Assembly: GCF_003946885.1 (NCBI RefSeq)
Contig: NZ_RWKQ01000001.1
Span: 22,542-58,057 of the forward strand
From: Specibacter cremeus
GTDB lineage: Bacteria; Actinomycetota; Actinomycetes; Actinomycetales; Micrococcaceae
DNA length: 35,516 nucleotides
Direction of reading: 5' to 3'
Both the position numbers and the translations under genes were made by a program. The notes below the pieces were generated by a model that did not search any database, was not told the DNA's origin, and was given only the letters and a program-made list of their open reading frames with translations. Below are positions 5,443 through 26,244 of this stretch, in pieces; the first letter of the stretch is position 1, and each line of letters begins with the position of its first letter.

Positions 5443-6006
5443 TCAGCCGTTGAGGACTGCCCGGATCCGCGCCACGGATTCGTCGAGGATGGCCGTCACG
5501 CCGGCGGCGATGTCAACGACGACGGCGGTCTCGTCCGGCTGCAGGGGTTCGAGCGTGGCCAATTGCGACTCGAGCAGTGCCGGCGGCATGAAGTGCCCGG
5601 ACCGGCCCTCAAGCCGGGCGCCGAGCACCTCGACGGTGCCGTCCAGGTGCAGGAAGATCGTGTCGGGCGCCTTGGCGCGGATCGCGTCGCGGTAACTGCG
5701 ACGCAGCGCCGAGCAGGCGATGACGACCCCGGCCGGCCCGGCGCCGGCCAATTCGTCACCGATGATGGACAGCCACGGCCACCTGTCCTCGTCGGTCAGC
5801 GGGGTCCCGGCGGCCATCTTCTGGATGTTGGCGAGTGGATGGAGCGAGTCGCCGTCCAGGAACGGGGCGTTCATGGCGTCGGCCACGAGGGCGCCGATGG
5901 TGCTTTTGCCGGACCCGGAGACCCCCATCACGACGACGCGGGGAACGGCATGTCCGGCCGACGCGGTGGGGTCGGGAACGTCGGGGCCCGGAGCGGTGGT
6001 ATCCAT
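5443..6006 (-). CDS. gntK: Gluconokinase
   Basis: Phosphorylates D-gluconate to 6-phosphogluconate for the pentose phosphate pathway. This is the P-loop (shikimate kinase-like) GntK family: Walker A GVSGSGKS near the N-terminus, then the family motifs [46 protein letters not shown] and [10 protein letters not shown] chose the ATG at 6006 (187 aa) because AAGGAG lies just before it and the family begins about here; a longer frame from a TTG at 6060 has no homologous N-terminus. It lies 80 bp after guaB1 on the same strand and may be co-transcribed. A close paralogue is fused to a glycoside hydrolase at 7921-10230. Confidence 0.93.
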   Translation of the reverse strand: MDTTAPGPDVPDPTASAGHAVPRVVVMGVSGSGKSTIGALVADAMNAPFLDGDSLHPLANIQKMAAGTPLTDEDRWPWLSIIGDELAGAGPAGVVIACSALRRSYRDAIRAKAPDTIFLHLDGTVEVLGARLEGRSGHFMPPALLESQLATLEPLQPDETAVVVDIAAGVTAILDESVARIRAVLNG

Positions 6007-6086
6007 GACTCCTTGTATATCAAGAGGCGTCTGGCTTGCCCAGCGTCGTCCGCCTGTCAACCAGGTTCACCCGGGCCCCACCAGCC

Positions 6087-7920: not shown

Positions 7921-10230
7921 TCAGAGCCGGGTGTCGAACGAGTCGCAGAACACGTTGTCGTTGAACGTGCCCTGGAACGCCGAGAGCCCCTGGATCTTCG
8001 CCACGGTCGCCCGGATGGCTTCGCGGGTGGCGGCGTGGGCGTGGATGGCCGTCTTGACCATGGGCACGTCGATGAGGTGGTTGGGCTGGTTCAGTGAGAC
8101 AAACACGGTGGGCACCTCGGTGGTGTACCACGGAATCTCCGCGGCCATCGGGGTGGACCACTTGATCCGAATGGCGGCCTCCTGGGCGAAACCCTTAACA
8201 TTGGCGAACACGAACGCGGCGTCGTACTTCTCCGGGTAGTCCGCCGTGCCCTCCTCGGCGATGACGGACATGAAGTTCACGCCCGCCTCCCCCGCGGCGG
8301 TTCGCTCGTCCGCGGTCCGGAACCGGTGGACCTCGAAGCCCGCCCGTTCCAGTTCCTCCTGCACCAGGTCGAGGTAGCCGAGGGGGTCGGCCCGGGTGAA
8401 GTCGGCGCCGCCGGAGATGCCGTACAGGCGGATGCGCTTGTGCGTGGCCGGGGTGATGGGCAGGTTGTGCGCCGTGTCCTTGACCAGCGTGACGGTCTTG
8501 TCCGCGATCTCCGCGGCCACGGCCACATGCGCCGGGCTGCCAATGGCGGCGAGGGCCTCCACCGGTGGCACCAGCTCGTCCCGACTCTTGCGGTGCAGGC
8601 CCAGGGATGCCTTCAGGGCCAGGATCCGGCGCAGGGCGTCCAGCAGCCGGGCCTCGGTGATGACGCCGTTGCGGTACCCGTCGAGCATGAAGCCGAAGTC
8701 CTCTTCCGGGTTGCGGAAGAACAGGAACATGTCGCAGCCGGCCGCGATGGCGGCCGGGACCAGGTCCCGGCGCTTCATGGCCGCCGTTATGCCGACCATT
8801 TGGGAGGCGTCCGTGAGGATCAGCCCGTTGAATCCGAGCTCGCCGCGCAACAGGTCGCCGAGCAGTTCCGGGGCCAGTGTGGCCGGCAGGATGTCCGCGT
8901 CCGCCATTCCCGGCCGGAAACGCCGGGACAATTCCGGGGCGCCGATGTGCCCCACCATGATGGACTGCACGCCGTGCCCGATCATTTCCCGGTACACGTG
9001 CCCGTACGTCGTGTTCCACTCGTCGTAGCCGAGCGTGTTGTAGGAGGTCACCACGTGCTGGTCGCGCTCGTCGATGCCGTCGCCCGGGAAGTGCTTGATG
9101 GCGCACGCGGTCGGGGATTCGCTGATGCCGTCGAAGTACTCCTTGGCCCGCTCCACCACCACCTCCGGCGTGTTGCCGAAGGCGCGGGTGGAGATGACGG
9201 TGTTGCGCCAGTTGTAGTGGATGTCCACGATGGGCGCGAACGCCCAGTTGCAGCCCAGCGCGGCGGTCTCGACGCCGGCCACCTGCCCCATCTTGCGGGC
9301 AATCGATTTGTCCGGGTGCGAACCGGCCTGCAAATGTGTCGAGACGAACGTGCCGTCGTCGCAGCTGCCGGCACCGCCCATCTCCGGGTTGGAGGCCACC
9401 AGCAGCGGCACCTTCGTCTTGGACTGGGCGTAGCGGATGTGCTCCTGCACGGCCGCCGACGGGCCGGGCCGGTACCGCATGCCGCCCACGTGGTACTTCT
9501 CCAGCACCTCGTCGAGATACACGGGCGAGTAGTCGTTGTTGTGGTTGATGAACAGCTGGCCGATCTTCTCCTCCAGCGTCATCGACTCGATGGTCGACTC
9601 CACCCAGGCGATGTCGGCGTCGGCCAGGTTGAACGGGGCGGCCCTGAGGTCGACCTCGCGCGCACCGGGCGCCATGGGGGCCGGTACGGCGGCGGAGGCC
9701 GTGGCGGGCCGCAGCGAGCCGAGGCCGACGACGGCGGCGCCCACCACCTCGGCGACGCGCGCCGCGATGTCCACCACGGTCCCGGACTCGTCCGCGCCGA
9801 GCGGTTCCAGCGTGGCGAGTTGGGAGTCCAGCAGGGCCGTGGGCATGAAGTGGCCGCTGCGGCCCTCCAGCCGGGCGCCGAGCACGTCGCGGCTGCCGTC
9901 CAGGTGCACGAAGACCGTGCCCGGGGCCTGGGCGCGGATGGCGTCGCGGTAGCCGCGCTTAAGGGCCGAGCAGGCCACGACGAGCCCGCCGCCGGTGCTG
10001 GCCAGCTCGTGGCCGACCATGGCCAGCCAGGGCCGGCGGTCGTCGTCGTCCAGCGGCGTTCCTGCGGCCATCTTGGCGACGTTGGCCACCGGGTGCAGGG
10101 AGTCGCCGTCGATGAATGGCAGGCCGAGCTCGTGGGCGACCAGCGCGCCGATGGTGGTCTTGCCGCAGCCGGACACCCCCATCACGACGACTTGGGGTGC
10201 AGGCGCCGCGGCGGTGGACTGCGGGCTCAC
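7921..10230 (-). CDS. Gluconokinase-GH3 glycoside hydrolase fusion protein
   Basis: One uninterrupted 769-aa frame joining two enzymes. Residues 13-165 are a complete GntK-type gluconokinase: Walker A GVSGCGKT (18-25), [27 protein letters not shown]. An Ala/Pro-rich linker (about 171-192) leads to a family 3 glycoside hydrolase: catalytic barrel about 205-545 with NagZ-like KHFPGDG (379-385) and DQH (390-392, possible acid/base dyad) and LTDASQM with candidate nucleophile Asp474; C-terminal alpha/beta domain about 575-769. There is no signal peptide, so it acts in the cytosol on imported glycosides. The GTG start overlaps the manD stop by 4 bp. No good ribosome site was found for a separate GH3 start in the linker. 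The glycoside substrate is unknown; hexosaminidase, glucosidase or glucuronide activity are all possible. Confidence 0.88.
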
Positions 10231-11456
10231 CAGTCGTGGACCGTTCCGTCGATGAGGCGGTTGTACGGCAGGTACGCCTGCTGGTACGGGAAGGCCGCGG
10301 CCGCCTCCTCGTTGAACTCGACGCCGATGCCAGGCGCCTCGCCCGGGTGCAGGTAGCCGTCCTTGAACGTCATGGACTGGTGAAAGACCTCGTTGGTCGC
10401 GTCCGAGTGCTGCATGTACTCCTGGATCCCGTAGTTGTGGATGGCCAGGCCGACGTGCAGCTGGGCGGCGAAGCCCACCGGGGAGATGTCGGTGGGGCCG
10501 TGGAAGCCGGACTTGACCTGGTACTGCGCGGCGAAGTCCATGACCTTCTTCAACGGCGAGATGCCACCGAAGTGGGTCGAGGCCGCCCGGACGTAGTCGA
10601 TCAGCTGTTCCTTGATCAGCGTCTGGAAGTCGTAGACCGTGTTGAAGACCTCGCCGATGGCCAGCGGCGTGGTCGTGTGGGAGCGGACCAGGCGCAGCGC
10701 CTCCTGGTTCTCGGCCGGGGTGCAGTCCTCCAGCCAGAACAGGTCGTACGGTTCCAGCGCCTTGCCGAGCTTCGCGGCCTGGATCGGCGTCATCCGGTGG
10801 TGGCCGTCGTGCAGCAGCGGGATTTCCGGGCCGAACTCGTTGCGCACGGCCTCGAACACGGTGGGCAGGTGGCGCAGGTAGGCACGGGTGTCCCAGTCCT
10901 CCTCCTGCGGGTAGGCGCCACGGCCGGCCGGCTCGTAGTCGTAGCGTTCACCGCTGGCCTGCGCCTGCGCGGCGACACCGTAGACGGCCTTGATGCCGGG
11001 GATGGCCGTCTGGACGCGGATGGACTTGTACCCGAGTTCCAGGTGCTCGCGGATCGAGTCGAACAGCTGCGGCAGATCGGTGCCCGAGGCGTGGCCGTAG
11101 GCGCGCAGCCCGTTGCGGGACGCACCGCCCAACAGCTGGTACACCGGCAGCCCGGCGATCTTGCCCTTGATGTCCCACAGGGCCATGTCGACGGCGGCGA
11201 TCGCGGCCATGGTGACCGGGCCGCGGCGCCAGTACGAGCTGCGGTAGATGAACTGCCAGGTGTCCTCGATGCGGTGCGGGTCGCGGCCGACCAGCAGCTG
11301 GGCCACGTGTTCCTTCAGGTAGGCCGCCGCCGCGAGTTCGCGCCCGTTCAGCGTCGCGTCGCCGATGCCGACCACGCCTTCATCGGTGGTGACCTTCAAC
11401 GTCACGAAATTGCGGGACGGACTGGTGACAAAGACTTCGGCGGAAACGATTTTCAC
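10227..11456 (-). CDS. manD: D-mannonate dehydratase, enolase superfamily
   Basis: Dehydrates D-mannonate to 2-keto-3-deoxy-D-gluconate, the third step of glucuronate breakdown. 409 aa, as usual for ManD. Enolase-superfamily Mg2+ ligands are visible as Asp217 (LLHDGHHR), Glu243 (WLEDCTP) and Glu269 (AIGEVF); other ManD signatures are [18 protein letters not shown] and [10 protein letters not shown] with His319. I chose the GTG at 11456, preceded by GGAAGG at eight bases, because the protein family starts with [10 protein letters not shown]; the open frame upstream to 11888 is Arg-rich shadow inside the transporter gene. It is the middle gene between the transporter and the kinase-hydrolase fusion. 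Some ManD-like enzymes act weakly on gluconate as well, so D-mannonate is likely but not proven. Confidence 0.92.
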
Positions 11457-11491: not shown

Positions 11492-12985
11492 TCAGTGGGA
11501 CGGGGTCTCGGACGCCGGGCCGTCGGTGGGGCGCCGCACCGTCCCGGTCGTGTCGGCGGCGTCGGATTCGGCCGCCTTCAAGCGGGCGGTCTGGAGGCGG
11601 ATGACGCGGCGGTCGCTGATTTCGGCCACGATTTGCTTGTGTTTGGCGTCGGTCAGGGGGTAGGCGAGCATGGCGAGCAGGGCCAGGATGGCGAAGACCA
11701 TGGGCAGCAGGCCGGCACCGGCGCGGATGCCCAGCAGTGCGTGGGCGCTTTGCTGGCCGACGCCGGCAGTGTAGCCGCCCCAGGCGAGGGCGAAGGCGGC
11801 CAGCGCGCCGCCGACGGCCTGGCCGGTCTTGCGGGTGAAGGAGAACAACGCGTACGTGATGCCCTCGGTGCGGATGCCGGTCTTCCATTCACCGTATTCG
11901 ACGGTGTCCGCCTCCAGGGCCCAGACCACCATGCTGACCAGCATGACGCCTATCTGGGTGACGATGACGCCTGTGAACGCCAGCCACACCATGTTGGCAG
12001 GCGCGAGGAAGACGATCAGTCCGCCGGCAGCCATCAGGACCGTGGCAGCCAAGTACATCTGCTTCTTTCCGAAGGCCTGAACCAGTCGGGGCATGATGCT
12101 GGCCAGGCCGAAGGTCAGGACGATGTTGATGATGGACATGACGGCGTAGAGCTCCAGGGAGTGCAGCACGTCGCGGAAGTAGTAGATCTGGACGGTGCCG
12201 ACGGCCAGATAGCCGGTCAGGAACAGGAAGGAACTGATGCACAGCAGCAGGAGCGGCTTGTTCCCTTTCAAGGTGGCGAAGCTCTGCCTCATGGAGACCT
12301 TGGCAACCTCGCGGACAACGCGTTCCTTGGTGCTGAAGACCGTGAACATGTACAGGGCCGTGCCGACGACGGCGAAAATGATGGTCATCGTGGTGAACAG
12401 TGGCTGAAGGTGGGCCCCGTCCTTCATCAGCGGCGCGATGAAGATGCCCAGGAAGGAAGCGACGGCCACGCCGCCGATGGTGCGGGCGCTGGCCAATTTG
12501 GCGCGCTCGCCTGCATGCTGTGTCATGGCCCCGGCGAGGGAGCCGTAGGGGATGTTGACGAAGCTGTAGGCCAGGCCAAGCAGGGCGTAGCTGACATAGG
12601 CCCAGAGCAGCATGCCGGACTGGCCGATCTGCGGGATGGAGAAGGCGGCCACGCTGAGCAGCAGCAGCGGCACGGAACCGAACATGATGAACGGGCGGAA
12701 CTTGCCGAGCCTCTTGTGGTAGGTCCGGTCGACGACCCGGCCGGCGAGCACGTCGGAGAAGGCGTCAAAGATGCGCACCACCAGCAACAGCGTGCCGGCG
12801 GCCGCGGCACTGATGCCGGCCACGTCCGTGTAGTACAACAGCAGGAACATCGTGGCGGTGGTGAAGGCCAGGTTGTTGGCGGCATCCCCGGCGCCGTAGC
12901 CGACGATGCTGAGCTTGCGCAGTGGCCCTTGCGCATGCTGCGTGCCACCGGCAGCTGTTCCGGTCTTGTCCAGTGTCATGGTCAT
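11492..12985 (-). CDS. GPH-family glycoside/uronide:cation symporter
   Basis: Inner-membrane symporter of the glycoside-pentoside-hexuronide (GPH, MelB/UidB-type) branch of the major facilitator fold, about 12 hydrophobic helices. The family N-terminus [18 protein letters not shown] and the motifs [18 protein letters not shown] and [12 protein letters not shown] are clear. I chose the ATG at 12985 (MTMTLDK), six bases after AAGGAGCCC; a GTG at 13000 precedes that Shine-Dalgarno. It is the first gene of an operon with manD and the kinase-GH3 fusion, behind an operator and promoter at 13160-13199. The family takes up melibiose, xylosides or glucuronides with Na+ or H+; with uronate genes on both sides a hexuronide or uronate is the best guess. 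Confidence 0.9.
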
Positions 12986-13159
12986 CACGGGCTCCTTCAC
13001 CCATCCTCCGCACGGTGGCTGTCGCCATGCGGTGCGACGCGTTCCCGGCTCCGTCTTGCAGTGACTCTTGCAGTGAATCTTGCAGTGGGTACAGTGTCCG
13101 GGTTTCGCGTCAACAACCCCGTCCCGGCATCCTTGCCGGCTTGTGAGCTGTGTTACTAG

Positions 13160-13290: not shown

Positions 13291-14715
13291 TCAGGCGCCC
13301 AGGGCGCCGTCGGCGGCGGCCCGGGCGATGCCGTCGACCACGGCGCCGTTGGCCGCCAGGTCCGCGTCCAGGATGCCCACCAGGGCGCGCACGTCGTCGT
13401 TGCCCGGCAGCGCAAGGGCGGCGGCCAGGTCAGCGGCCGCCGCGTCGGCGATGGCATCCCCGGCACGGTTGGCCCGGCGCAGGAAGGCGATCCATGAGGC
13501 GATCATGCGCAGGGCGCCCGCGCCGCTGCGCCCTGCGGCGAGTTCCGCCGCCAGGACGGGCACGGCCCGCATGCGCAACTTGCTGGAACCGTCCATCGCG
13601 ATCTGGGCCAGGTGGTGCGCGATCCGGCCATTGCCGAATCGGCTCAGCAACGCGGCCCGGTACGCGGGAATGCCCAGGCCCGTCGCCGGAAGGTTGCGTT
13701 CGGCCTCATCCCAGAATTCCTCGATCATGGCCGCGCAGACGGGATCCGCCAGCGCCTGCGCCACGGTGCCGTGGCCACGCAGCTGCCCCGCATACGCCAT
13801 CAGGGAGTGGGCGCCGTTGAGCAGCCAGAGTTTCCGGTTCTCGAACGCCTCGATGTCGTCGACGAACACGGCCCCGGCGCTTTCCCAGTCGGGTCGCCCG
13901 GCCGGGAAGTCGCCGCTGAGCACCCAGTCACGGAACGGCTCCGTCACCACCGGGGCGGCGTCGCCAAAGTCCGTGGCCGCCGCCACCAGCTGGATTTCGG
14001 CATCCGTGGTGCGCGGCGTGATGCGGTCCACCGAGGTGCCCACGAAGCTGACGTTCGCGTCGATCCAGGCGCCCAGCCCCGCGTCGGCCGCCGCGGCGAG
14101 CGGGACGATGGCCGCGCGGGCGGCGGCGCCGTTGTGGGCCAGATTGTCGCAGGAGACGACGGCGATCGGCCCGCCCCCCGCGCGGCGCCGGGCGTCAAGC
14201 GCCTGCACCAGGCGCCCGGCGGCGGTCACCGCCCAACGCAACCCGCCGTCGTCGTTCCCCAGCGCCGCGGCCAGCAGGTCGATGTCGGCGGCGACGGCCG
14301 GGTTGGCGGTGTCCAGCCGGCCGGCCGCGTCCAGGTTGTAGGCCGCCTCCGTGATGGTCAGGGTGACGACGGCGGTGCCGGGGGACGCGACCAGGCGCGC
14401 GAGCGTGGCGACGTCCGCGCCGTCATGGGCCTCGACGATGCTGGTCACCAGCTCGAAGCTGTCGCCGTCCCCCGCCCGCTCGATGAGCGTATACAGCCCG
14501 TCCTGGGCGGCCAGCGTGAGCGCCGCGTCGGGGCGGCGGCCGGTGAAGGCGGCAATCCCCCACTCGGCGGCGTCGCCGGCGTGCTGCGTGTACCAGGCCT
14601 GGTGGGCGCGGTGGAACGCGCCCAGGCCCAGGTGGACGATGCGCACCGGCGCCGCCGGTCCGGCCTTCGCCGTGGCACGGGTCAACGGTTGGACGGAGGT
14701 GGACTGGGTGCTCAC
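13291..14715 (-). CDS. uxuB: Fructuronate reductase (D-mannonate oxidoreductase), mannitol dehydrogenase family
   Basis: NAD(P)H-dependent enzyme that reduces D-fructuronate to D-mannonate, the second step of glucuronate catabolism. It belongs to the polyol-specific long-chain dehydrogenase family, 474 aa. Visible: nucleotide-binding HLGLGAFHRAHQAWYT (near 28-43), SCDNLAHNG, SVDRITPRT, and the catalytic pattern K-x5-N-x2-H in KLWLLNGAHSLMAYAG; C-terminal signature RFGNGRIAHHLAQIAMDG. The GTG start shares GTGA with the uxaC stop, so the two are translated in tandem. Tagaturonate reductase or mannitol dehydrogenase would be alternatives, but pairing with uxaC and manD favours fructuronate. Confidence 0.88.
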   Translation of the reverse strand: MSTQSTSVQPLTRATAKAGPAAPVRIVHLGLGAFHRAHQAWYTQHAGDAAEWGIAAFTGRRPDAALTLAAQDGLYTLIERAGDGDSFELVTSIVEAHDGADVATLARLVASPGTAVVTLTITEAAYNLDAAGRLDTANPAVAADIDLLAAALGNDDGGLRWAVTAAGRLVQALDARRRAGGGPIAVVSCDNLAHNGAAARAAIVPLAAAADAGLGAWIDANVSFVGTSVDRITPRTTDAEIQLVAAATDFGDAAPVVTEPFRDWVLSGDFPAGRPDWESAGAVFVDDIEAFENRKLWLLNGAHSLMAYAGQLRGHGTVAQALADPVCAAMIEEFWDEAERNLPATGLGIPAYRAALLSRFGNGRIAHHLAQIAMDGSSKLRMRAVPVLAAELAAGRSGAGALRMIASWIAFLRRANRAGDAIADAAAADLAAALALPGNDDVRALVGILDADLAANGAVVDGIARAAADGALGA

Positions 14716-16136
14716 AGCTTGAAGGCCCTTCGGGGTGCGGCGTCGACGATGTCAACGATGATCTCGTGCGCGCGTGCTTCGCTGACGCGGCGTTCGGCGA
14801 CCAGGCGGGCCAGGAAGGCGGCCTCGACGCGGCGCGACGTATTGTGCCGTGCGGGGATGGAACAGAAGGCGCGGGTGTCGTCGATGAAGCCGGAGGACCG
14901 GGAGAAGCCGGCCGTCTCGGTCACCGCGGAACGGAACCGCAGCATGGCGTCCGGGGCGTCCAGGAACCACCACGGGGCGCCGATGAACACGGACGGGTAG
15001 AAGCCGGCCAACGGCGCGATCTCGCGGGAGAACACGGTCTCGTCGATCGTGAACGGGATGAAGTGGAAGCCGGCGGCCGTGCCGAAGTCCTCCAGCATGG
15101 GGCGCAACGCCTCGGTGTAGCTGACGGCGAATGGGATGTCGTGGCCGGTGTCCGCGCCGAAGCCGTTGAAGGTCGCCGTGTGGTGGTTGCGCAGCACGCC
15201 CGGGTGCATGGTCATGACGAGGCCGTCGCTGACGGACATGCGCGCCATCTGGTACATCATGTGCGCCTCGAAGACGTCCGCGTCGGCGGCCGTCGCCTCC
15301 CCGCGCCGGGCCTTTTCGAACAGGGCCGACGCCTCGGCCGGCTCGAGCCGGAGGGTCTGGGCCGTGCGGGATCCGTGGTCGGCGGACACGGCGCCGTGGT
15401 CCACGAAGTACTGGCGGCGGTTTTCCAGGGCACGGAGGTAGCCGGCGTGCCCGGTGAGTCCGTCGCCGGCCAACGAGATCAGCCTCTCGACGCGTTCGGC
15501 CCAGTCCGGCTGGCCGAACTTGATGTACGCGTCGGGCCGGAAGGTGGGCAGCACACGGCCGGGAAAGGAACCATCCGCGGCCAGCGCGGCGTGCGCGGCG
15601 AGGTCATCGAGCGGGTCGTCCGTGGTGGCCAGGACCTCGATGTTGAAGTCCGCGAACAGGCTGCGCGGACGGAAGGCCGGGCTTTGCAGTTTCGCGTCCA
15701 GCTCGTCGAAGAGGGCGTCCGCATGTTCGGCACTCGGTTCGCGGTCCAGCCCGAATACGTGCTGGAAGGAGTCCCGCATCCAGTAGCCGGAGGCGGTGCC
15801 GTCAAAGAGCGGCCAAGACATGCAGAAGTGGCGCCAGGTTTCGCGCGGTTCGACGGCGGTGGTGCCGCCCATGCGCAGCTGGTCCAGCGGGACGCCGCTG
15901 GCGTGGATGAGCCGGGTGACGTAGTGGTCCGGGGTGACCAGCAACGTTGCGGGGTCCGGGAAGGGCGTGTCCTGGGCCAGCATGGCGGCATCGACGTGGC
16001 CATGGGGGGAAATGATGGGCAGCTGCTCGACGTCGGCCAGCAGGGAACGGGCGATGTCCCGCGTTCCGGGATCGGCCGGCAGCAGGCGGTCGGGGTCGGC
16101 GGCCAGGGAAAGGGCGGGCGCGGTCGGATGTGACAT
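14712..16136 (-). CDS. uxaC: Uronate (glucuronate) isomerase
   Basis: Isomerises D-glucuronate to D-fructuronate (and galacturonate to tagaturonate) in the cytosol, the entry step of the pathway. Amidohydrolase-fold UxaC family, 474 aa. The metal-binding HxH is in IISPHGHVDA (His45, His47); other family stretches are DHYVTRLIHASGVPLDQL, RETWRHFCMSWPLF, MTMHPGVLRNHH, FHFIPFTIDETVFSREIAPLAGFYPSV (in parts) and GFIDDTRAFCSIPARH. First gene of a two-gene operon with uxuB (4-bp overlap), behind operator B. With ManD from the next operon it gives the full route from glucuronate to 2-keto-3-deoxygluconate. No KDG kinase or KDPG aldolase is in the window. Confidence 0.94.
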   Translation of the reverse strand: MSHPTAPALSLAADPDRLLPADPGTRDIARSLLADVEQLPIISPHGHVDAAMLAQDTPFPDPATLLVTPDHYVTRLIHASGVPLDQLRMGGTTAVEPRETWRHFCMSWPLFDGTASGYWMRDSFQHVFGLDREPSAEHADALFDELDAKLQSPAFRPRSLFADFNIEVLATTDDPLDDLAAHAALAADGSFPGRVLPTFRPDAYIKFGQPDWAERVERLISLAGDGLTGHAGYLRALENRRQYFVDHGAVSADHGSRTAQTLRLEPAEASALFEKARRGEATAADADVFEAHMMYQMARMSVSDGLVMTMHPGVLRNHHTATFNGFGADTGHDIPFAVSYTEALRPMLEDFGTAAGFHFIPFTIDETVFSREIAPLAGFYPSVFIGAPWWFLDAPDAMLRFRSAVTETAGFSRSSGFIDDTRAFCSIPARHNTSRRVEAAFLARLVAERRVSEARAHEIIVDIVDAAPRRAFKL

Positions 16137-17259: not shown

Positions 17260-18309
17260 TTACCGGCCCACCGGACCGGTGGAGCCGCGCAGCACCAGTT
17301 CGGTCACCAGCGAGGGGGACTCAAAGGCGGTGCGGGGCTGGTCCAGTTCCTCGAGGATGCGTTGCACGGCCGCAACGCCGGACTCGCGCAGCGGCGACTT
17401 GATGGTTGACAAGGGCGGCGTGGTGAAGTCCGAACCGAAGATGTTGTCAAAGCCGAGAATGCTCAGGTCCGAGGGAATCCGCACGCCGGCGCCCTGGAGC
17501 TCGCGCATGAGCCCGATCGCCATGAGGTCGTTGTAGCAAAAGACCGCGGTGGCGACACTGGCGCGCACCGCGGCCGCCGCCCGCCGCCCGCCGTCGAGCG
17601 TTGGGACGCCGGAAGCCACCACGGTGGCCGACATGCCGGACCAGTCACAGCGGGCCTTGATGCTCTCCCAGCGCCGGGCGGACATCCACGACCGCTCCGG
17701 CCCGGCGACATACGCCAGCGACGTGTGGCCGAGCGAGGCGAGATGACGCACCGCGTCGGTGACCCCGGCGTCGGTGTCGGCAACCAGGGAATCGACGCCC
17801 TCGACGCGCCGGTTGATGACGGCCGCCGGCTTTTGCGCCGCCAACGCCCGGATCTGCTCGTCGGAGAGCCGCGGGCTGGCCAGCACGATGCCGTCCACGG
17901 TCGCCAGCATGCGCTGGGCTGCGGTCAGCTCCCCTTCCGCGGACTCCGCCGACTCGGCGAGCACCAGCGTGTAGTCGCGTTCGGCGGCGGCCGCCTCGGC
18001 GCCGCGAATGACCTCGAAGAACGCCGGGTTGGTGATGTCGGAGACAATCAGGCCGATCGTGTTGGTGCGCCCGGTGGGCAGCGCCCTGGCAAAGACATTC
18101 ACCTGGTAGTGCAACTGCGCGGCGGCATCCTCGACCTTCTTCTGCGTCGTGGCGCTGACCCTGCCGGGTTTGCTGAGCGCCCGCGACACCGTCGACGGGT
18201 TCACGCCCGCCAGCGCGGCAATGTCGTAGATGGTCGGCGCCGTCCGGCCACCGCGCGCCTTGGCGACGGGCCGCGTTGCATCGTCGGCGATGTCCATGCT
18301 GTCGCTCAA
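17260..18309 (-). CDS. LacI-family transcriptional regulator 1
   Basis: Sugar-responsive DNA-binding repressor, 349 aa. The helix-turn-helix is TIYDIAALAGVNPSTVSRAL (about 26-45) with a hinge region ending NVFARALPTGRT, followed by a periplasmic-binding-protein-like effector domain (IGLIVSDITNPAFFEVIRGA, VAGPERSWMSARRW, ILGFDNIFGSDFTTPPLSTI). I chose the TTG at 18309: GGAGG lies exactly five bases before it; an ATG at 18297 has no such site, and the frame upstream to 18402 runs through a hairpin. It sits between the oxidoreductase at 18413 and the frameshifted isomerase. It is one of two candidates to bind the 16-bp palindromes in this window. Confidence 0.9.
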   Translation of the reverse strand: MSDSMDIADDATRPVAKARGGRTAPTIYDIAALAGVNPSTVSRALSKPGRVSATTQKKVEDAAAQLHYQVNVFARALPTGRTNTIGLIVSDITNPAFFEVIRGAEAAAAERDYTLVLAESAESAEGELTAAQRMLATVDGIVLASPRLSDEQIRALAAQKPAAVINRRVEGVDSLVADTDAGVTDAVRHLASLGHTSLAYVAGPERSWMSARRWESIKARCDWSGMSATVVASGVPTLDGGRRAAAAVRASVATAVFCYNDLMAIGLMRELQGAGVRIPSDLSILGFDNIFGSDFTTPPLSTIKSPLRESGVAAVQRILEELDQPRTAFESPSLVTELVLRGSTGPVGR

Positions 18310-18350
18310 ATGATCCTCCGGGACGATTCTCCAGATGCCATCGTAACCGG

Positions 18351-18386
18351 AGGCGGGGCCTGATATTCGCATATCCGGCCCCGCCT
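18351..18386 (-). terminator. Long hairpin terminator between oxidoreductase and LacI 1
   Basis: Arms AGGCGGGGCC (18351-18360) and GGCCCCGCCT (18377-18386) are perfect complements; after a single T/C mismatch an inner stem GATAT/ATATC closes on the loop TCGC. The 15 paired bases make one of the strongest hairpins in the window. It lies 26 bases past the oxidoreductase stop and likely ends the ABC-transporter operon; it could also attenuate LacI 1. Confidence 0.65.
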
Positions 18387-18412
18387 GGCACGGGTATCGC
18401 ACTGGTGTGCCG

Positions 18413-19579
18413 TTAGCCGCGCTGCGGGTACTTGCCCTCGTCGCCGATGCGCTTGTTCAGCAGTTGCAGGAACTCGTCCTCGTTAAAGTCGAGCGGCACC
18501 TCCTCGCCCTTCCAGCTGGAGAGGTGGATGGCGTTGGCGAGGCGGACGCCGTTGATGCCGTCGGAGCCCGGCGCCAGCAGCGGCGTGCCGTCCAGGACGT
18601 TGGCGGCGAAGTTCTCCAGCACGCCGGCATGCTGCGCACCCCAGGGCGAATCGAATTCGATGACCTCGGTGGTGAGGTACTCGTCCATGTCCAGCTGGCC
18701 CATGAACAGCCTGTGGACGTCGTCCATGCCCATGTTCTCGCTGATCTCGCGTTCCTTCTTCTTCAGCCGGGTGACGGTGGCGGTCTTGCTGCCCTCGACC
18801 ACGATCTTGCCCGCATCGCCCAGGATTTCAAACCGGTCGGTGCCGACCATGTCGTGCGTGGCGGTGACGAACGTGCCGGTGGCGCCGTTGCCGTAGTCGA
18901 CGACGGCGGTCACCTCGTCCTCGACGGCGATGTCGCGGCGGAAGCCGTAGGCGACCTTCGAGTAGACGGATTTCGGCACACCGCAGATCCACTGCCACAG
19001 GTCCAGCTGGTGCGGGGCCTGGTTGACCAGCACGCCGCCGCCCTCGCCGCCCCAGGTGGCACGCCACGCGCTCGAATTGTAGTAGCCCTGCGGCCGCCAC
19101 CACGTGGTGATGATCCAGTTTGTGCGCAGGATGGTGCCGATCTCGCCGCCGTCGACGATCTCCTTCAGGCGCTTGTACAGCGGGTTGTTGCGCTGGTTGA
19201 ACATGATGCCGAAGGAGAGCCCGGGCTTGGTCGCCGCGAAGTCGTTGAGTTCCCTGACCTGCTTCGTGTAGACGCCGGCCGGCTTCTCCACCAGCGCGTG
19301 GATGTCGCGTGACAGCGCGGCGATGCCCATTTCCGGGTGCAGGTAGTGCGGGACGCAGGTGACGACGGCGTCGACGTCGCCGCTGTCGAGCATGGCGATG
19401 TAGTCGTCATAGACGTGGACGCCGGGGTAGGTTGCCGACGCCGCCTCGCGCTTGGCGGGATCGGTGTCGGTGATGGCGCCGATTTCCATGTTGGGCACCA
19501 GGCCGTCGGTGATGAATTTGGCGTACATGCCGCCCTGCTGGCCGAGGCCGATGATGCCGAGGCGTAGTTTCTTGCTCAT
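18413..19579 (-). CDS. Gfo/Idh/MocA family oxidoreductase A
   Basis: NAD(P)-dependent sugar dehydrogenase-type protein, 388 aa. The N-terminal Rossmann fold has GLGQQG (11-16); the family active-site EKP is at 98-100 (ALVEKPAGVYTK); the substrate domain has GGVLVNQAPHQLDLWQW with the His/Asp pair typical of the family. No signal peptide. It follows the TIM-barrel gene at 19706 in the same direction, across a 126-bp gap filled with REP-like repeats. Such pairs carry out C3 oxidation of a glycoside followed by elimination in known systems (for example the DgpA/DgpB-C type C-glycoside pathway); inositol metabolism (IolG with IolE or IolI) is an alternative. Substrate unknown. Confidence 0.88.
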   Translation of the reverse strand: MSKKLRLGIIGLGQQGGMYAKFITDGLVPNMEIGAITDTDPAKREAASATYPGVHVYDDYIAMLDSGDVDAVVTCVPHYLHPEMGIAALSRDIHALVEKPAGVYTKQVRELNDFAATKPGLSFGIMFNQRNNPLYKRLKEIVDGGEIGTILRTNWIITTWWRPQGYYNSSAWRATWGGEGGGVLVNQAPHQLDLWQWICGVPKSVYSKVAYGFRRDIAVEDEVTAVVDYGNGATGTFVTATHDMVGTDRFEILGDAGKIVVEGSKTATVTRLKKKEREISENMGMDDVHRLFMGQLDMDEYLTTEVIEFDSPWGAQHAGVLENFAANVLDGTPLLAPGSDGINGVRLANAIHLSSWKGEEVPLDFNEDEFLQLLNKRIGDEGKYPQRG

Positions 19580-19616
19580 GTGTTCTGCTCCGTTTCGCAG
19601 CTGTTGTTCATGGTGT

Positions 19617-19701
19617 GGTCTCGACGAGCTCGACCACCGAACGGTGATTGAGCTTGTCGAAATCAGTCGGGACCACTGGTGATCGAGCCTGTCGAGATCG
19701 A
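19617..19701. repeat. Cluster of REP-like palindromic repeats
   Basis: Three copies of a short motif with core TCGACAAGCTCGACCACCG: a forward copy at 19617-19640, and inverted variants at 19643-19666 (GATTGAGCTTGTCGAAATC) and 19675-19701 (GATCGAGCCTGTCGAGATC). The copies can pair into a cruciform or mRNA hairpin between the isomerase and oxidoreductase genes. A fourth copy is at 26211-26235. This looks like an extragenic palindromic repeat family of the genome. Confidence 0.7.
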
Positions 19702-19705
19702 AGGG

Positions 19706-20566
19706 TCAGAAAAGGTCCCTGAAACCCATGCCGACCAGGTTGTCGTGGGAGGTCTGCAAGGCATCCCACACGGAACGCCCGTACAGTTCATCCTGCTCCA
19801 CCAGCAGGTACTGCGCTCCGGCGGCCTGGCTGTGTTCGATGATCGACGGGAAGTCGAGGTTGCCCTCGCCCACCTCGGCGAACTGGACCACGTTCTTGAA
19901 CTCCGCCATGAAGCCGGCAATATCGCCGGTCTCCAGCAGCCCGAACGCCGACTCGGGCAGTATGCCGATCCGGTAGTCCTTGAGGTGCACCATGGCCGTG
20001 CGTCCGGCGTACTTGTCGAGGGTGCGGACGGGGTCCAGGCCTCCGCGCTGGACCCAGTGGACGTCGATCTCCAGGCCCATGGCCGGGGAGTTCTCGTTGA
20101 TGATGTCTAGCATGTATTTGCCGTCGAACTTGGCAAACTCGATGTGGTGGTTGTGGTAGTAGAGGCTGATACCGTGCTCCTGCAGGCGCTCGGCATAGCC
20201 GTTGGTCTCCTTGGCGAAGTCGACGACGGCGTCGATCGACTTCATGGCCGGGAAGGGCAGCATGCCGATGCGCAGCAGTTTGGTGTCCAGCCGCTTGGCG
20301 TCGTCCACGATCTTGTCGAAGTCGTCCTTCAGCGATTCGCCGGGACGGCCCACCGGCTTCTCCATCATCACGGACAGCGAGGCGATGTCCATGCCGAGTT
20401 CGGTTTGGGATTTCTCCAGTTCCGCCACGTTTTCGGGGGTCATCGGGATCTGGGAGATCTCGACGGCGTTGTAGCCGATCGCGCTGACCTTGCGGAGCGT
20501 CTCAAAGGCGCCTACTTCAGCGAAGCTGTCCCTGAGCATCATCGCCTGCACACCAATTTTGGCCAT
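19706..20566 (-). CDS. Sugar phosphate isomerase/epimerase-like TIM-barrel protein A
   Basis: Xylose isomerase-like TIM barrel (AP_endonuc_2 fold), 286 aa. Likely divalent-metal site residues appear in SLYYHNHHIEF, GLEIDVHWVQRGG and HLKDYRIG, with a late acidic residue in YLLVEQDELYG. I chose the ATG at 20566, four bases after AAGGAA; the frame upstream to 20989 runs inside the ATPase gene and is shadow. It lies 76 bp after the ABC transporter operon and before oxidoreductase A, so it is probably part of that transcript. Members include IolE/IolI-type dehydratases and isomerases and the lyases that act on 3-keto-glycosides; which one this is cannot be told from sequence. Confidence 0.88.
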   Translation of the reverse strand: MAKIGVQAMMLRDSFAEVGAFETLRKVSAIGYNAVEISQIPMTPENVAELEKSQTELGMDIASLSVMMEKPVGRPGESLKDDFDKIVDDAKRLDTKLLRIGMLPFPAMKSIDAVVDFAKETNGYAERLQEHGISLYYHNHHIEFAKFDGKYMLDIINENSPAMGLEIDVHWVQRGGLDPVRTLDKYAGRTAMVHLKDYRIGILPESAFGLLETGDIAGFMAEFKNVVQFAEVGEGNLDFPSIIEHSQAAGAQYLLVEQDELYGRSVWDALQTSHDNLVGMGFRDLF

Positions 20567-20642
20567 GTCATTCCTTTCTTCGGCCGGGGCCCTGTGGGGC
20601 TCGTCCCGGCGGTCGTTCCAGACTGTAAATCTTGTGCGCGGG

Positions 20643-21533
20643 CTACGCAGAGATCGGGCTGGCTTCTTCCAGGCGTTGTGCATCCAGGAGCCGGTGCCGG
20701 TCATTGCGCCGCTTGGCCTGGCGGTCCGGGTCAGGCACGGGCGACGCCAGCAGCAGCCGCTGGGTATAGGGGTGTTCCGGGCTCCGCGTAACCACGTGTG
20801 CAGGCCCTTGTTCGACGATTTCACCGTGGTACATGACGGCGACGCGGTGGCTGATGTGCCGGACCACGTCGAGGTCATGGGAAACGAACAGGTAGGACAC
20901 GCCGGTGTCGCGCTGGATCTGCAGGAACAGGTCCAGCACCACGGCCTGGGTCGACAGGTCAAGAGCGCTGACGGGTTCGTCGCATACAATCAGCTTCGGC
21001 GACAATGCCAGGGCCCGGGCAATGGCGACACGCTGGCGCTGGCCGCCGCTGAACTCCCGCGGCAGGCGGTTGATGGCATCGGAGGGCAGGCCCACCTGGT
21101 CCAGCAGTTCGCGCACCCGTGCCCTGGCCTGTGCCGGGGACTGGCCCTGGACACCCAGCGGCTCGGCCAAGATGGAGCCAATTTCCATGGATGGGTTCAG
21201 CGAGGTGTAGGGATCCTGGAACACGACCTGAAGGTCCCTGCCCAGGCGCCGGCGTTCGGCGCGCGTGGCATGGCTGATGTCGTTGCCTTCAAAGGTGATG
21301 GTGCCGCGGGTGACAGGGGCCAGGCCCAGCACCGCCCGCCCCAGCGTGGTCTTGCCGGAGCCCGACTCGCCGACCAGGCCGAGGGTTTCCCCCGGCTTGA
21401 CGGAGATGTTGATGTCGGTCAGTGCCCGGAACGGCTTGCGCCGGAATCCCTTGAGCGGGTACTCAACGTCCAGGCCGGAAACGGTGAGCAGCTCGGCTCC
21501 GGAAGCGGCGCCATGATGTTTGGTGGTACTCAT
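20643..21533 (-). CDS. Dipeptide/oligopeptide-type ABC transporter ATPase (DppF-like)
   Basis: Second ATPase of an Opp/Dpp-family importer, 296 aa. Walker A GLVGESGSGKTTLGRA, Q-loop VVFQDPYTSLNP, signature FSGGQRQRVAIARAL, Walker B LIVCDEPVSALD, switch VSHDLDVV, and the family C-terminal stretch SPEHPYTQRLLLASPVPDP. Its start overlaps the stop of the permease-ATPase fusion by 4 bp. The subfamily transports peptides but also nickel, opines and oligosaccharides; sugar genes downstream suggest an oligosaccharide or glycoside here. Confidence 0.9.
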   Translation of the reverse strand: MSTTKHHGAASGAELLTVSGLDVEYPLKGFRRKPFRALTDINISVKPGETLGLVGESGSGKTTLGRAVLGLAPVTRGTITFEGNDISHATRAERRRLGRDLQVVFQDPYTSLNPSMEIGSILAEPLGVQGQSPAQARARVRELLDQVGLPSDAINRLPREFSGGQRQRVAIARALALSPKLIVCDEPVSALDLSTQAVVLDLFLQIQRDTGVSYLFVSHDLDVVRHISHRVAVMYHGEIVEQGPAHVVTRSPEHPYTQRLLLASPVPDPDRQAKRRNDRHRLLDAQRLEEASPISA

Positions 21534-23395
21534 CGGGCCATCTCCTTCTCGTCACGCTCGTCATTGCGTGCAGCGGCTTGCGCGGCTGGCATGCCAGCGG
21601 AAACCAGCATGGTCATGGGCTCCTTGTCTTCGAGCATCGAGGACAGGAGCTTTTGTGTATAGGGGTCCTTCGGGTTGCGAAGGATGTCGCGGACGTCGCC
21701 GTCTTCAACGAGCCGGCCGTTCTGCATCACCGCGACGCGGTCGCACAGGTCGGCGACGACGCCGAAGTTGTGGGTCACCAGGATCACGCCAACACCCAGG
21801 CGCTTTTGCAGGTCCCGGACCAGGTCCAGGACGTCCGCCTGTACGGTGACGTCAAGCGCCGTGGTCGGCTCATCGGCAATGATCAGGTCCGGTTCGCAGC
21901 TGATGGCCCCGGCAATGAGAACGCGCTGTGCCATGCCGCCGGATACTTCGTGTGGGTAGGCCTCAAATGTTTTCTCCGGGAAGCGGATGCCTACGTCGTC
22001 CAGCAGCTTCAGGGCGCGCTTGGTGGCCTCGGACTTGGAAATCTTCAGCACCCGCATCATGGGGGTGACGAGCTGGTAGCCGATGGTGAAGGCGGGGTCC
22101 AGGTTGCTCATGGGCTCCTGGGGGATGTAGGAGATCCGCTTGCCGCGGTATTCGCTCAGCCGCGTCTGGCTGACGCGGTCATCGGTGGGGGCCACCGTAT
22201 ACTTACCGTCGAATTGGATGCTGCCGCCCACAATGCGGGCTGCGTCCGGCAACAGTCCCAGGATGGAGAAGGCGGTCTGGGACTTGCCGGAGCCGGATTC
22301 GCCCACGATGCCCAGGACCTCCCCGCGATCAACATGGAAGGAGACGTCGTCCACAACCTTCTTGATGGAACCGTCGGCCTGGGGGTAGCCGACGCCGAGG
22401 TGGGAGACCTTGACCAGATGGTGTTCGGTGCCGGCCTCCACAACGGCTGAAAAGGTGCGGTCGGGGCGGCGCCGGACCGTGGCCAGGGAAGCCTGTGCAG
22501 TGTTGCCTCCGCGCTTGGGGGCCTTGATCTTCTCGGCGTCCTCGAGGGCATCGCGGATGGCGTTGGCCAGCAGCACCAGCGCGCCGATGGTCAGGCCGAT
22601 CGCCAGGGCCGGCCATACGAGCAGGAGCGGGCTGAGGTAGATGTTCTTGAAGCCCTCGTTGAGCATGACGCCCCACGTGGCCACCGACGGGTCGCCCAAC
22701 CCCAGGAACTCCAAGCCGGACTGGATGGCGATGGCCACCCCGCAGATCACGGCTGTCTGGATGATGATAGGGGCGCGCACCACGGAAAAGATGTGCCGGG
22801 ACATGATGGCGGTGTCGCTAAGGCCGGCCACGCGGGCGGCATCGACGTACAGCTCGTTGCGAACGGACTGGACGGCCGTGCGGGTCAGCCGGAAGTAGCC
22901 GGGCGCCATCAGGATGCCGAAGGCAACCATCGAGAGCCATACGGACGGCCCCAGGGCGGCCCGGACGGTCAGCAGCACGATGATGCCGGGCAGGCTCATC
23001 AGGACGTTGACCAGCCAGTTGGATACGCCGTCGAACTTGCCGCCGTAGTACCCGGCGACGAGGCCGGAGGGCAGGCCGATGGCGATGGCGACGGCGGCAC
23101 ACAGCAGTGCGGAGAGCAAGGTGGTCCGCGCGCCGAACACGAGCCGGCTCCAGACGTCGCGGCCCACGCTGTCGGTGCCGAGCAGGTTCACGGCGTCGCC
23201 GGATGCCAGGGTCTTGCCGATGTTGGCGAAGTTGGGGTCAAAGGAGGTCAGCACATTGGCCAGCACCGCCAGAACCACCATGAACAGCAGGACGACGACG
23301 GCCGACAGGCCCAGGGGGTTCTTCAGGATCTTCTTGATGACGTTGGAACGGACCACCGTCCCGCTCTGGCCGACGAGCTCGACTGGCACACTCAT
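21530..23395 (-). CDS. Dpp-type permease-ATPase fusion (DppC-DppD)
   Basis: A single 621-aa chain with two transporter parts. Residues about 20-290 are a DppC-type permease with six hydrophobic helices, the LLGTDSVGRDVWSRLVFGAR entry motif and an EAA-like loop (ELYVDAARVAGLSD). After a basic linker (about 291-325) comes a DppD-type ATPase: Walker A GESGSGKS (365-372), signature VSGGMAQR (484-491), Walker B LIIADEPTTALD (504-515), switch VTHNFG. Overlaps of 4 bp join it to genes on both sides. Fused DppCD proteins are known in actinobacteria, so the fusion is a family variant and not an assembly fault. It works with the DppB permease, the DppF ATPase and the lipoprotein of this operon. Confidence 0.9.
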   Translation of the reverse strand: MSVPVELVGQSGTVVRSNVIKKILKNPLGLSAVVVLLFMVVLAVLANVLTSFDPNFANIGKTLASGDAVNLLGTDSVGRDVWSRLVFGARTTLLSALLCAAVAIAIGLPSGLVAGYYGGKFDGVSNWLVNVLMSLPGIIVLLTVRAALGPSVWLSMVAFGILMAPGYFRLTRTAVQSVRNELYVDAARVAGLSDTAIMSRHIFSVVRAPIIIQTAVICGVAIAIQSGLEFLGLGDPSVATWGVMLNEGFKNIYLSPLLLVWPALAIGLTIGALVLLANAIRDALEDAEKIKAPKRGGNTAQASLATVRRRPDRTFSAVVEAGTEHHLVKVSHLGVGYPQADGSIKKVVDDVSFHVDRGEVLGIVGESGSGKSQTAFSILGLLPDAARIVGGSIQFDGKYTVAPTDDRVSQTRLSEYRGKRISYIPQEPMSNLDPAFTIGYQLVTPMMRVLKISKSEATKRALKLLDDVGIRFPEKTFEAYPHEVSGGMAQRVLIAGAISCEPDLIIADEPTTALDVTVQADVLDLVRDLQKRLGVGVILVTHNFGVVADLCDRVAVMQNGRLVEDGDVRDILRNPKDPYTQKLLSSMLEDKEPMTMLVSAGMPAAQAAARNDERDEKEMAR

Positions 23396-24333
23396 GACAC
23401 ACGCACCTTGGGGTTCAGCCAGCCGTTGATGAGGTCCACCAACAAGTTGACGATGATAACGATGATGACGGTGTACAGCACCACGCCCATGACGAGCGGG
23501 ATGTCGCCCATGCTGGTGGACTGCACTGCCAGCGCACCCATGCCGGGCAACGCGAAGATTTGCTCAATGATCACGACGCCGCCGAGCATGCCCACGAACT
23601 TCAGGCTCAGGACCGTCAGCCCGGCCGGGGCGGCGCTGCGCAGCACGTGCTTGAAGAGGATTTCCCACTCGGGGATGCCGCGGCTGCGCAGTGTGCGCAC
23701 GTAATCCCTTTCAAGCTGCTTGATGACTGCGCTGCGGATCTGCTGGGCGATGCTGGCGATTCCGTTGATGAGCAGGGCGATGACGGGCAGGGTCATGGAA
23801 GCCGCCCAGGCGTCTGCGCCGGAGTCCGGGGAGATGCTGCTGGTGGCCGGGAAAATCTTCAGGGTGATGGCAAATACGGAGACCAGGACGATCGCCAAAA
23901 CGAAGTCTGGAATGGCATCGCCTACGACGGCGGCACCCTGGACGAGCCGGTCTATCCAGCCGCGCTTGACGGCCGCGGCCATCCCCAGGAGGGTCGCCAC
24001 GATGGCAATGCACACTATCGAGACGATGACGAGGGTCAGCGTGATGGGCAGCCGGGTGGTGATGGCGCTGACCACGGGTTCGGAAGTGAACCAGGAGACG
24101 CCAAAGTCGCCGTGCAACGCGTTGCCGGCCCATTCGAAGAACCGGGTCAGCAGCGGCCGATGGAGTCCAAGCGCAATCTCCTTGGCCTGGACCTGCTCCT
24201 GGCTGGCGTACTCACCGAGGATGTTCCGGGCGATGTTGGCGCTGGAGAAGTACAGGAGGCAGTAGGTGAAGAAGGAGATGGCCACAAGCACCGAGATGCC
24301 GGAGGCAATTCGTTTGAGGATGAAGGAAACCAT
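23392..24333 (-). CDS. Dpp-type ABC transporter permease (DppB-like)
   Basis: Inner-membrane permease, 313 aa, with a first helix at the N-terminus (LKRIASGISVLVAISFFTYC), an extracellular loop containing the family stretch LGLHRPLLTRFFEWAGNALHGDFGVSW (in parts), then about five helices and the EAA loop RDYVRTLRSRGIPEWEILFKHV. The end has the typical LVDLINGWLNPKVR. ATG at 24333 follows GGAG by six bases. It lies 74 bp after the binding-protein gene and overlaps the fusion gene by 4 bp. It forms the pore together with the permease half of the fusion. Confidence 0.91.
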   Translation of the reverse strand: MVSFILKRIASGISVLVAISFFTYCLLYFSSANIARNILGEYASQEQVQAKEIALGLHRPLLTRFFEWAGNALHGDFGVSWFTSEPVVSAITTRLPITLTLVIVSIVCIAIVATLLGMAAAVKRGWIDRLVQGAAVVGDAIPDFVLAIVLVSVFAITLKIFPATSSISPDSGADAWAASMTLPVIALLINGIASIAQQIRSAVIKQLERDYVRTLRSRGIPEWEILFKHVLRSAAPAGLTVLSLKFVGMLGGVVIIEQIFALPGMGALAVQSTSMGDIPLVMGVVLYTVIIVIIVNLLVDLINGWLNPKVRVS

Positions 24334-24407
24334 GGGGTGCTCCAGGTGGAGGGATCAAGGGTGGGGAGGTGTGCCGGGGGCGGGGCCCGCCCCCGGCACG
24401 TGCGCCG

Positions 24408-25937: not shown

Positions 25938-26011
25938 CGTTGGCTCCTAATGGTTGAAAAGTAGACGTTTTGCCGATCGTGGTGAACGCCACCCGATGTG
26001 GCATACGTCTC

Positions 26012-26050
26012 ACAGTACTGGCGTTGGCAGCTTTTGGCAACCGATTGTCA
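26012..26050 (-). promoter_or_regulatory. LacI-type operator C and promoter of the ABC importer operon
   Basis: Palindrome TGGCAACCGATTGTCA at 26035-26050. On the minus strand the distal half reads TTGCCA (26040-26035) as -35, and TACTGT (26017-26012) lies exactly 17 bp downstream as -10. The leader to the lipoprotein ATG would be about 65 bases. Same geometry as sites A and D. Confidence 0.8.
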
Positions 26051-26083
26051 TAGAAGTTTGCTGAAGTTCCAGGCCATGGTTTC

Positions 26084-26116
26084 ATTGGGCCGAGATTCCT
26101 TGGAATTTCGGCCAAT
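26084..26116. terminator. Near-perfect hairpin upstream of operator C
   Basis: Left arm 26084-26099 (ATTGGGCCGAGATTCC) and right arm 26102-26116 (GGAATTTCGGCCAAT) pair along about 15 bases with one bulged G and one wobble around a TT loop. No U-tract. Before the IS element inserted, this hairpin lay about 125 bp beyond the stop of oxidoreductase B, so it may be the original terminator of that operon, now separated by the element. A regulator-binding dyad is the alternative. Confidence 0.5.
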
Positions 26117-26122
26117 GCGGAT

Positions 26123-26138: not shown

Positions 26139-26210
26139 GAGCGACCGAGCGTGGGGCATACGAGGTCCGTGCGGTGCATGCCGGGCGGCGAGTGCGGGAG
26201 GACTCGCGCA

Positions 26211-26235: not shown

Positions 26236-26244
26236 ACGGACTAG

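Follow-up and report, generated by a model that had tools for sequence, protein, structure and literature searches.

Gluconokinases of the GntK/IdnK type, such as E. coli GntK (1knq) and 3t61, carry a P-loop and a set of further conserved motifs. These enzymes phosphorylate a 6-hydroxyl group. KDG kinases of the PfkB type (KdgK, model NF052444), which act on 2-keto-3-deoxygluconate (KDG), belong to a different family. The GH2 enzyme UidA is encoded in operons that also hold uidB and the genes of the glucuronate pathway. Among family 3 glycoside hydrolases (GH3), the N-acetylglucosaminidases NagZ and YbbD carry a KHFPG loop, and the His/Asp dyad of this loop occurs in NagZ hydrolases. According to PMC8950772, the GH3 phosphorylases Nag3 and BglP also use a His/Asp dyad, as their acid/base; PMC9730296 (citing Neun et al. 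2022) reports high activity on pNP-beta-glucuronide for the metagenomic enzyme SN243, and PMC12943147 names GH154 as well as GH1, GH30 and GH79 for glucuronidase-like activity.

Here, we describe a gene of Specibacter cremeus that joins relatives of two of these groups in one open frame. It lies in a stretch of 35,516 nucleotides, hereafter the window. Its kinase half shares the P-loop and all conserved motifs with the GntK/IdnK gluconokinases but is fused to a GH3 enzyme, lies behind manD in a KDG-producing operon, and has a second, stand-alone copy in the genome. The operon shares uidB and glucuronate pathway genes with the UidA operons, whereas it holds a GH3 in place of the GH2 enzyme. The GH3 half shares the His/Asp dyad loop and the colinear GH3 part, at 36% identity in the structural match, with BglX/BglP (5VQD/5VQE, AUG44408.1), but differs from it in its glucuronide operon, in the absence of a beta-phosphoglucomutase gene (pgmB) among the identified operon genes, and in its N-terminal kinase. 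A first-pass annotation, made from the sequence alone, knew of no described enzyme with this architecture, and our search of the open-access PMC literature likewise recovered no paper on a gluconokinase–GH3 fusion.

Architecture of the fused gene and its operon

The first-pass annotation had read the gene as a complete GntK kinase followed, after a linker, by a complete GH3 enzyme, and domain searches upheld both parts of that reading (Table 1). The open reading frame has no internal stop. Its kinase domain scores well above the curated TIGR01313 cut-off (113.75 bits), and the GH3 half passes the PF00933 cut-off and carries the Asp nucleophile motif in addition to the dyad loop. Beyond the PF00933 domain, the GH3 part runs on to the stop at 7921. 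The whole linker between the two domains spans about 35 residues; measured between two fixed motifs, its length is 37 residues in the window and 22–60 across related loci. An AlphaFold2 model built with 40 sequences (the window and its relatives) has moderate confidence (mean pLDDT 70.3, pTM 0.63) and shows two folded parts. The linker core is probably flexible, judging from its low pLDDT in this model, in which other stretches, some of them within the GH3 part, also fall below 50.

Table 1 Features of the fused gene and its neighbourhood in the window.
Feature	Position	Strand	Basis or remark
Stand-alone GntK-type gluconokinase, paralogue outside the operon	5443..6060	-	TIGR01313 179.0 bits
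Fused gene: GntK-type kinase, linker and GH3	7921..10230	-	769 aa, GTG start
GH3 N-terminal catalytic domain, residues 218-538	8617..9579	-	PF00933 184.1 bits (cut-off 27)
TDASQM, predicted nucleophile D474	8797..8814	-	aligns with BglX TDATQM
Loop with predicted Asp/His acid/base dyad	9055..9096	-	BglX comparison
Linker core, residues 172-190	9661..9717	-	pLDDT < 50 in model
Kinase domain, residues 14-163	9742..10191	-	TIGR01313 (GntK/IdnK type) 179.7 bits
P-loop GVSGCGKT, residues 18-25	10156..10179	-	inside kinase domain
manD, D-mannonate dehydratase	10227..11456	-	NF043051 683.6 bits (cut-off 550)
uidB-like glucuronide transporter, GPH family	11492..13000	-	NF007353 589.6 bits (cut-off 528)
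uxuB-like, mannitol dehydrogenase family, predicted fructuronate reductase	13291..14715	-	PF01232/PF08125
uxaC, glucuronate isomerase	14712..16136	-	NF002794 553.6 bits (cut-off 387)
LacI-family regulator, upstream neighbour of uxaC	17260..18402	-	PF00356/PF13377

The fused gene is the last of the operon uxaC-uxuB-uidB-manD-[kinase-GH3], which encodes the pathway from glucuronides through glucuronate to KDG. Its GTG start overlaps the manD stop (GTGA). The manD frame as listed, to 11888, was over-extended, and we placed its start by the model match. Three of the four upstream genes (UxaC, UidB-like and ManD) passed curated cut-offs, and the uxuB-like reductase scored 259.8 bits with NF011611, below the cut-off of 603. 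A LacI-family regulator lies upstream of uxaC in same-genus relatives as well as in the window.

Further upstream, on the minus strand at 18413-29307, a neighbouring cluster combines an Opp-type ABC transporter with GFO/IDH/MocA dehydrogenases and a TIM-barrel gene of the AP_endonuc_2 type. It may form a levoglucosan-like or 3-keto-glycoside module, and parts of it are again found next to uxaC in relatives from the same genus. The 621-aa frame at 21530-23395 (minus strand) is an apparent fusion too, with an Opp/Dpp-type permease domain in front of an ABC ATPase domain. Two very long frames overlap on opposite strands at 31591-35457 (plus) and 31708-35409 (minus); the minus frame has no NCBIfam match at 1e-10.

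The fusion is conserved in Micrococcaceae

We examined the best 80 of 100 confirmed related loci, two of which (L008 and L009) are contigs of one strain. The kinase and the start of the GH3 lie in one open frame in 67 of these 80 loci, do not in six, and lack an upstream kinase in seven. Among the six, five (L006, L022, L050, L062 and L068) have separate neat genes and L074 appears frameshifted. In 65 of the best 80 loci (two from one strain), the GH3 frame behind the kinase stays open for 1.5 kb or more; the GH3 frames are short in L061 and L078, both among the 67, and L079 ends early.

Across the family, the gene was found at E ≤ 1e-100 in 30 of 295 Micrococcaceae genomes. In 16 of these 30 the gene matches as a single stop-free span that begins no later than residue 13 and ends at residue 769, and in eight, all from the window's genus, it is split. 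The remaining six comprise one copy with a single stop (G258), one interrupted copy (G116) and four partial matches (G049, G133, G274 and G097). In the wider phylum, none of 395 other sampled genomes matched at E ≤ 1e-75, the host being the only match among the 396 drawn. A phage collection contained 23 records with weak matches to the GH3 of locus L075.

We then compared the region around the GH3 start in eight split loci with 69 other rows (the window, the 67 fused loci and the frameshifted L074), of which 67 were parsed (the window, 65 fused loci and L074; L026 and L069 were left out). In seven of the eight split loci, an AGGAG and an ATG or GTG are found four codons before a conserved GH3 VDL motif, and the eighth (L062) has a TTG start without AGGAG. 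This ribosome site and start were present in none of the 67 parsed rows, 59 of which contain no ATG anywhere in the 43 codons from −40 to +2. Some other Shine–Dalgarno-like site, mostly before GTG, was seen in 19 of the 67; AGGAG precedes a GTG at codon −20 in L042 and L052, and GGAG precedes an ATG in L051 and L057. The window has a single ATG in the region examined, without such a site. A separate translation start for the GH3 part, which the first-pass annotation had named beforehand as counting against a fusion, is not apparent in the sequence, although an internal start may exist.

The separate genes in eight same-genus genomes could suggest that a sequencing error merely deleted the stop between two genes. 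However, because 65 of the best 80 loci are fused and the ribosome site and start seen in split genes are missing from the fused ones, including that of the window, we reject assembly error as exceedingly improbable. The kinase–GH3 fusion is real, and it is a conserved Micrococcaceae architecture.

In the window's genus the kinase travels with manD and the GH3 with uidB

At least 5.5 kb of upstream sequence was available for 71 of the best 80 loci. Both manD and the kinase lie upstream of the GH3 in 64 of them, manD without the kinase in one (L075), and neither in six. Sorting all 80 by gene content, 35 carry the complete set including uidB and 19 the set without uidB; nine have less than 5.5 kb upstream; nine have uidB and a GH2 gene, with uxaC beyond the examined stretch; one (L012) has only manD and the kinase; L075 lacks the kinase; and six have no operon gene within reach. 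In L049, the only one of these nine loci whose GH2 gene was scanned, NCBIfam identifies that gene as UidA (878.9 bits, cut-off 544), which marks its operon as a glucuronide operon; the GH2 genes of the other eight are 75–96% identical to the L049 copy.

The window's genus allowed a closer comparison, with 23 genomes of which G019 and G020 were left out of the reading. A complete GH3 is present in 10 genomes, and uidB, uxuB, manD and the kinase adjoin it in all 10; uxaC is visible in nine, the stretch of the tenth (L062) beginning inside uxuB. Four genomes (G002, G008, G010 and G021) carry uxaC-uxuB-manD-kinase, with no uidB or GH3 in the 16–18 kb read, and a genome-wide search of these four did not find this GH3. 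Because of this distribution of 10 versus four genomes, we conclude that in the window's genus the kinase goes with manD and the GH3 with uidB. By a hand count, random labels would give the 10-to-4 split with a chance of 1 in 1001, a figure that treats related genomes as independent, which they are not. In seven further genomes (G004, G005, G006, G007, G015, G017 and G018), the region read, that around the stand-alone kinase, holds no full operon; in G006 it has uxuB-like and manD-like genes. In G005, where the operon is absent from this region, what remains of a GH3, about 110 aa of its C-terminal end, lies beside the stand-alone kinase (L160, 9197-9526).

Relatives and candidate substrate of the GH3 half

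By sequence, the GH3 half is closest among solved structures to BglX (5vqd, E 1.3e-114), with which it is colinear over the whole GH3 part, and the NagZ-type YbbD follows far behind (E 3.9e-41). Foldseek likewise ranked the BglX phosphorylase first among solved structures (5vqe, 36% identity, with a TM-score of 0.81 normalised by target length). The first-pass annotation had called this half NagZ-like. The KHFPG loop with its Asp/His dyad is indeed held in common with NagZ and YbbD, but the NagZ model NF003740 gave 107 bits, below its cut-off of 207, and we therefore rule out NagZ membership. In addition, the Asp of the YbbD motif IDQEGG is Asn in the window, as in BglX. SN243, which we take to be a GH3 beta-glucuronidase and presumably the protein of PDB entries 7zb3 and 8c7f, would be only a distant relative, since the window's GH3 matches those entries at an E-value of about 1e-9.

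The simplest role for the GH3 half would be the cleavage of beta-glucuronides. This assignment follows from the presence of UidB and the glucuronate enzymes together with the lack of any UidA above the cut-off in the host, where the best hit reached 112.6 bits (NF007538, cut-off 544). The loop of the window has the His/Asp dyad seen in the GH3 phosphorylases (BglP/BglX, Nag3), and with BglX as the nearest solved relative in both sequence and fold, the GH3 half might instead be a beta-glycoside phosphorylase of the BglX/BglP type that acts on a glucoside or glucuronide and releases a sugar 1-phosphate. On plasmids, pgmB lies beside or near the GH3 homologue in two of five annotated plasmid neighbourhoods, those of Melissococcus and Carnobacterium (L124 13538-14197 and L128 10670-11332), or two of the four Firmicutes plasmids read, which points to phosphorolysis of glucosides. 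The window's operon, however, has no pgmB-like gene among its identified genes, and we know of no route from glucuronate 1-phosphate to UxaC, so that we regard phosphorolysis as possible but rather unlikely.

The beta-glucuronide role also has to be set against the loci in which the GH3 keeps other company. It adjoins a UidA-type gene in nine loci and therefore need not be the glucuronidase; it occurs without an upstream uidB in 19 otherwise full operons of the best 80 loci; and in six loci no operon gene was found in the examined stretch. The GH3 half could thus act on something other than a glucuronide, for instance a rare or 3-keto glycoside, in which case its presence in the operon would be historical. 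The coexistence with UidA-type genes fits this idea, as does locus L080, where two GFO/IDH/MocA-type dehydrogenases and a third gene adjoin the GH3 and uxaC is absent from the stretch examined; L085 has the same layout (only L080 was scanned). Against it, uidB stands beside the kinase and GH3 in all 10 GH3-bearing genomes of the window's genus and is absent from the operon in the four without GH3, and we consider a non-glucuronide substrate unlikely. In both L080 (2751-5808) and L085 (2773-5830), from Okibacterium and Mycetocola, the GH3 is divergent to the three genes, and the third of these in L080 has no NCBIfam match.

A candidate KDG kinase

The first-pass annotation had proposed that the protein couples glycoside cleavage to phosphorylation of the released acid. 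GntK enzymes phosphorylate the 6-hydroxyl group; glucuronate has a carboxylate at C6 and no free 6-hydroxyl, whereas KDG has one. Because the operon context gives glucuronate as the product, direct coupling fails on chemical grounds if that is the acid released. The kinase half more plausibly acts four steps further down the pathway, on KDG.

The genomic setting agrees with such a role. The kinase is linked to a KDG-producing gene, and no KDG kinase of a known type was found in the host. In this genome (99.98% complete), NF052444 detected no KdgK at E ≤ 1e-25, E. coli KdgK used as a query recovered only a fructokinase-like PfkB protein (1.8e-7), and a search for DgoK gave nothing. A PfkB-type KdgK would fill the same step, but the kinase half itself is of the GntK type. 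Five of the seven PfkB hits in the host were scanned; their best matches were ribokinase, fructokinase, 1-PFK/hexose kinase and fructoselysine kinase models, mostly under the model cut-offs, and KdgK was absent from the matches at 1e-20. For the step after KDG phosphorylation, the host has a partial match to KDPG aldolase (68 bits, 105 of 196 positions) in a stretch that contains an N.

Extending the search to 34 genomes, none exceeded the KdgK cut-off of 400 bits. The highest scores were 344 bits in G227, 344 in G308 (apparently the genome of locus L007) and 321 in G104, with six others at 92–100. The KdgK-like genes of G227 and G104 share 44% identity with E. coli KdgK, and that of G227 follows an Eda-type aldolase. 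Some PfkB match to KdgK was present at 1e-12 in 120 of 295 family genomes, and a divergent KDG kinase could therefore be missed elsewhere. L075, a metagenome-assembled genome, is an exception to the context described above: its uxaC-uxuB-manD-GH3 operon lacks the kinase, and the genome has a single GntK outside the operon and no KdgK.

The kinase half could also be an ordinary gluconokinase, in an operon that handles gluconate or an aldonate released together with the uronic acid, the two halves being fused as mere neighbours. In favour of this, the nearest solved chains are gluconokinases (3t61 being closest, E 4.9e-48), TIGR01313 is well above its cut-off, and the P-loop, D(G/A)DxxHPxxN, CSALKRxYR and GHFM motifs are present in the window and kept in all 62 operon kinases of the main type. 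Operon and stand-alone kinases differ at 20 positions, none an invariant motif residue, so that the sequence does not show KDG specificity and no residue emerged as a convincing marker of it; Glu49, which lies within a motif, is found in 53 of the 62 operon kinases, and the window has Ala at this position, like the majority of stand-alone kinases. Yet a stand-alone GntK-type gene exists in the host; two or more GntK-type genes were found in all 12 fused genomes tested, and a single one in each of the four tested genomes without an operon kinase. The operon kinase, moreover, sits behind manD, whose product is KDG, does so without any GH3 in four genomes, and accompanies no other KDG kinase found in the host. 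A mere gluconokinase seems to us doubtful in the light of this distribution. In the open-access PMC literature, a search combining KDG kinase, glucuronate and Arthrobacter returned no relevant paper.

History of the fusion and of the kinase module

An origin by duplication of the stand-alone kinase at 5443 and subsequent fusion had been suggested in the first-pass annotation. The likeness it rested on is there, at 63% identity, but the split operon kinases of sister species, which are separate genes between manD and GH3, are closer (75–78%). The kinase tree groups the 5443 kinase with other stand-alone kinases in a distinct clade (18 rows, support 100/99) that excludes the fused kinase, which is placed beside the split operon kinases without firm support. 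These two results rule out a fresh duplication of the 5443 kinase. The kinases of G002, G008, G010 and G021, the genomes with operon but no GH3, also group with the split operon kinases (92/84). The fusion would probably have arisen when two neighbouring genes lost the stop and the ribosome site that separated them.

Fifteen fused loci carry a second type of kinase, which has a GVAGCGK or GVTSCGK loop and is set apart in the kinase tree by a branch of 2.67. The strict P-loop is found in 11 of these 15, and the other three motifs in 15, 15 and 14. The four without a strict GxxGxGK loop, among which L043 and L071 read GVTSCGKS, may differ in activity. Since the GH3 tree, inferred by a quick method, scatters the second-type rows and its well-supported branches force at least three changes, the kinase module was probably exchanged between two divergent types. 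Both L070 and L075 are nested among the fused loci in the tree, and so the kinase has probably been lost from them. In a 37-row tree, 26 fused rows lie on one side of a branch, with five split and four outgroup rows on the other (support 50/52), and a single clade of split rows was not rejected (p-AU 0.41), which fits either one or several fusion events.

A possible two-headed enzyme for glucuronide utilisation

We give an even chance to the fused protein being a two-headed enzyme of a glucuronide-utilisation operon, whose GH3 half opens beta-glucuronides and whose GntK-type half phosphorylates KDG. On the reading that we infer for both substrates and for the benefit of fusion, the UidB-like transporter would import a beta-glucuronide, and the GH3 half would cleave it in the cytosol to D-glucuronate (step 1). 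UxaC, the UxuB-like reductase and ManD would then convert glucuronate through fructuronate and mannonate to KDG, the GntK-type half would phosphorylate the KDG 6-hydroxyl to give KDPG (step 5), and KDPG aldolase would split the product. Because the two halves would serve the first and fifth steps, the gain from fusion would be 1:1 co-expression and not channelling between sites.

A broader proposal, which we advance tentatively and hold to be less than evenly likely, is that a GntK-type P-loop kinase took over the step of the PfkB-type KdgK and was joined to a GH3 enzyme from a new subfamily that cleaves beta-glucuronides (by hydrolysis or phosphorolysis), thereby linking the first and fifth steps of the pathway, and that the fusion was kept while the kinase module was exchanged. 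The fusion is readily testable because unfused sister genes occur in the same genus. The carriers are soil bacteria related to Arthrobacter. If the two-headed reading holds, these actinobacteria would use a relative of gluconokinase for the KDG kinase step that is otherwise missing from their glucuronate breakdown, and pathway predictions for a common group of soil bacteria would change. The reading would also assign a substrate to an uncharacterised clade of GH3 enzymes, namely the beta-glucuronides, among which are many conjugates of plants and drugs.
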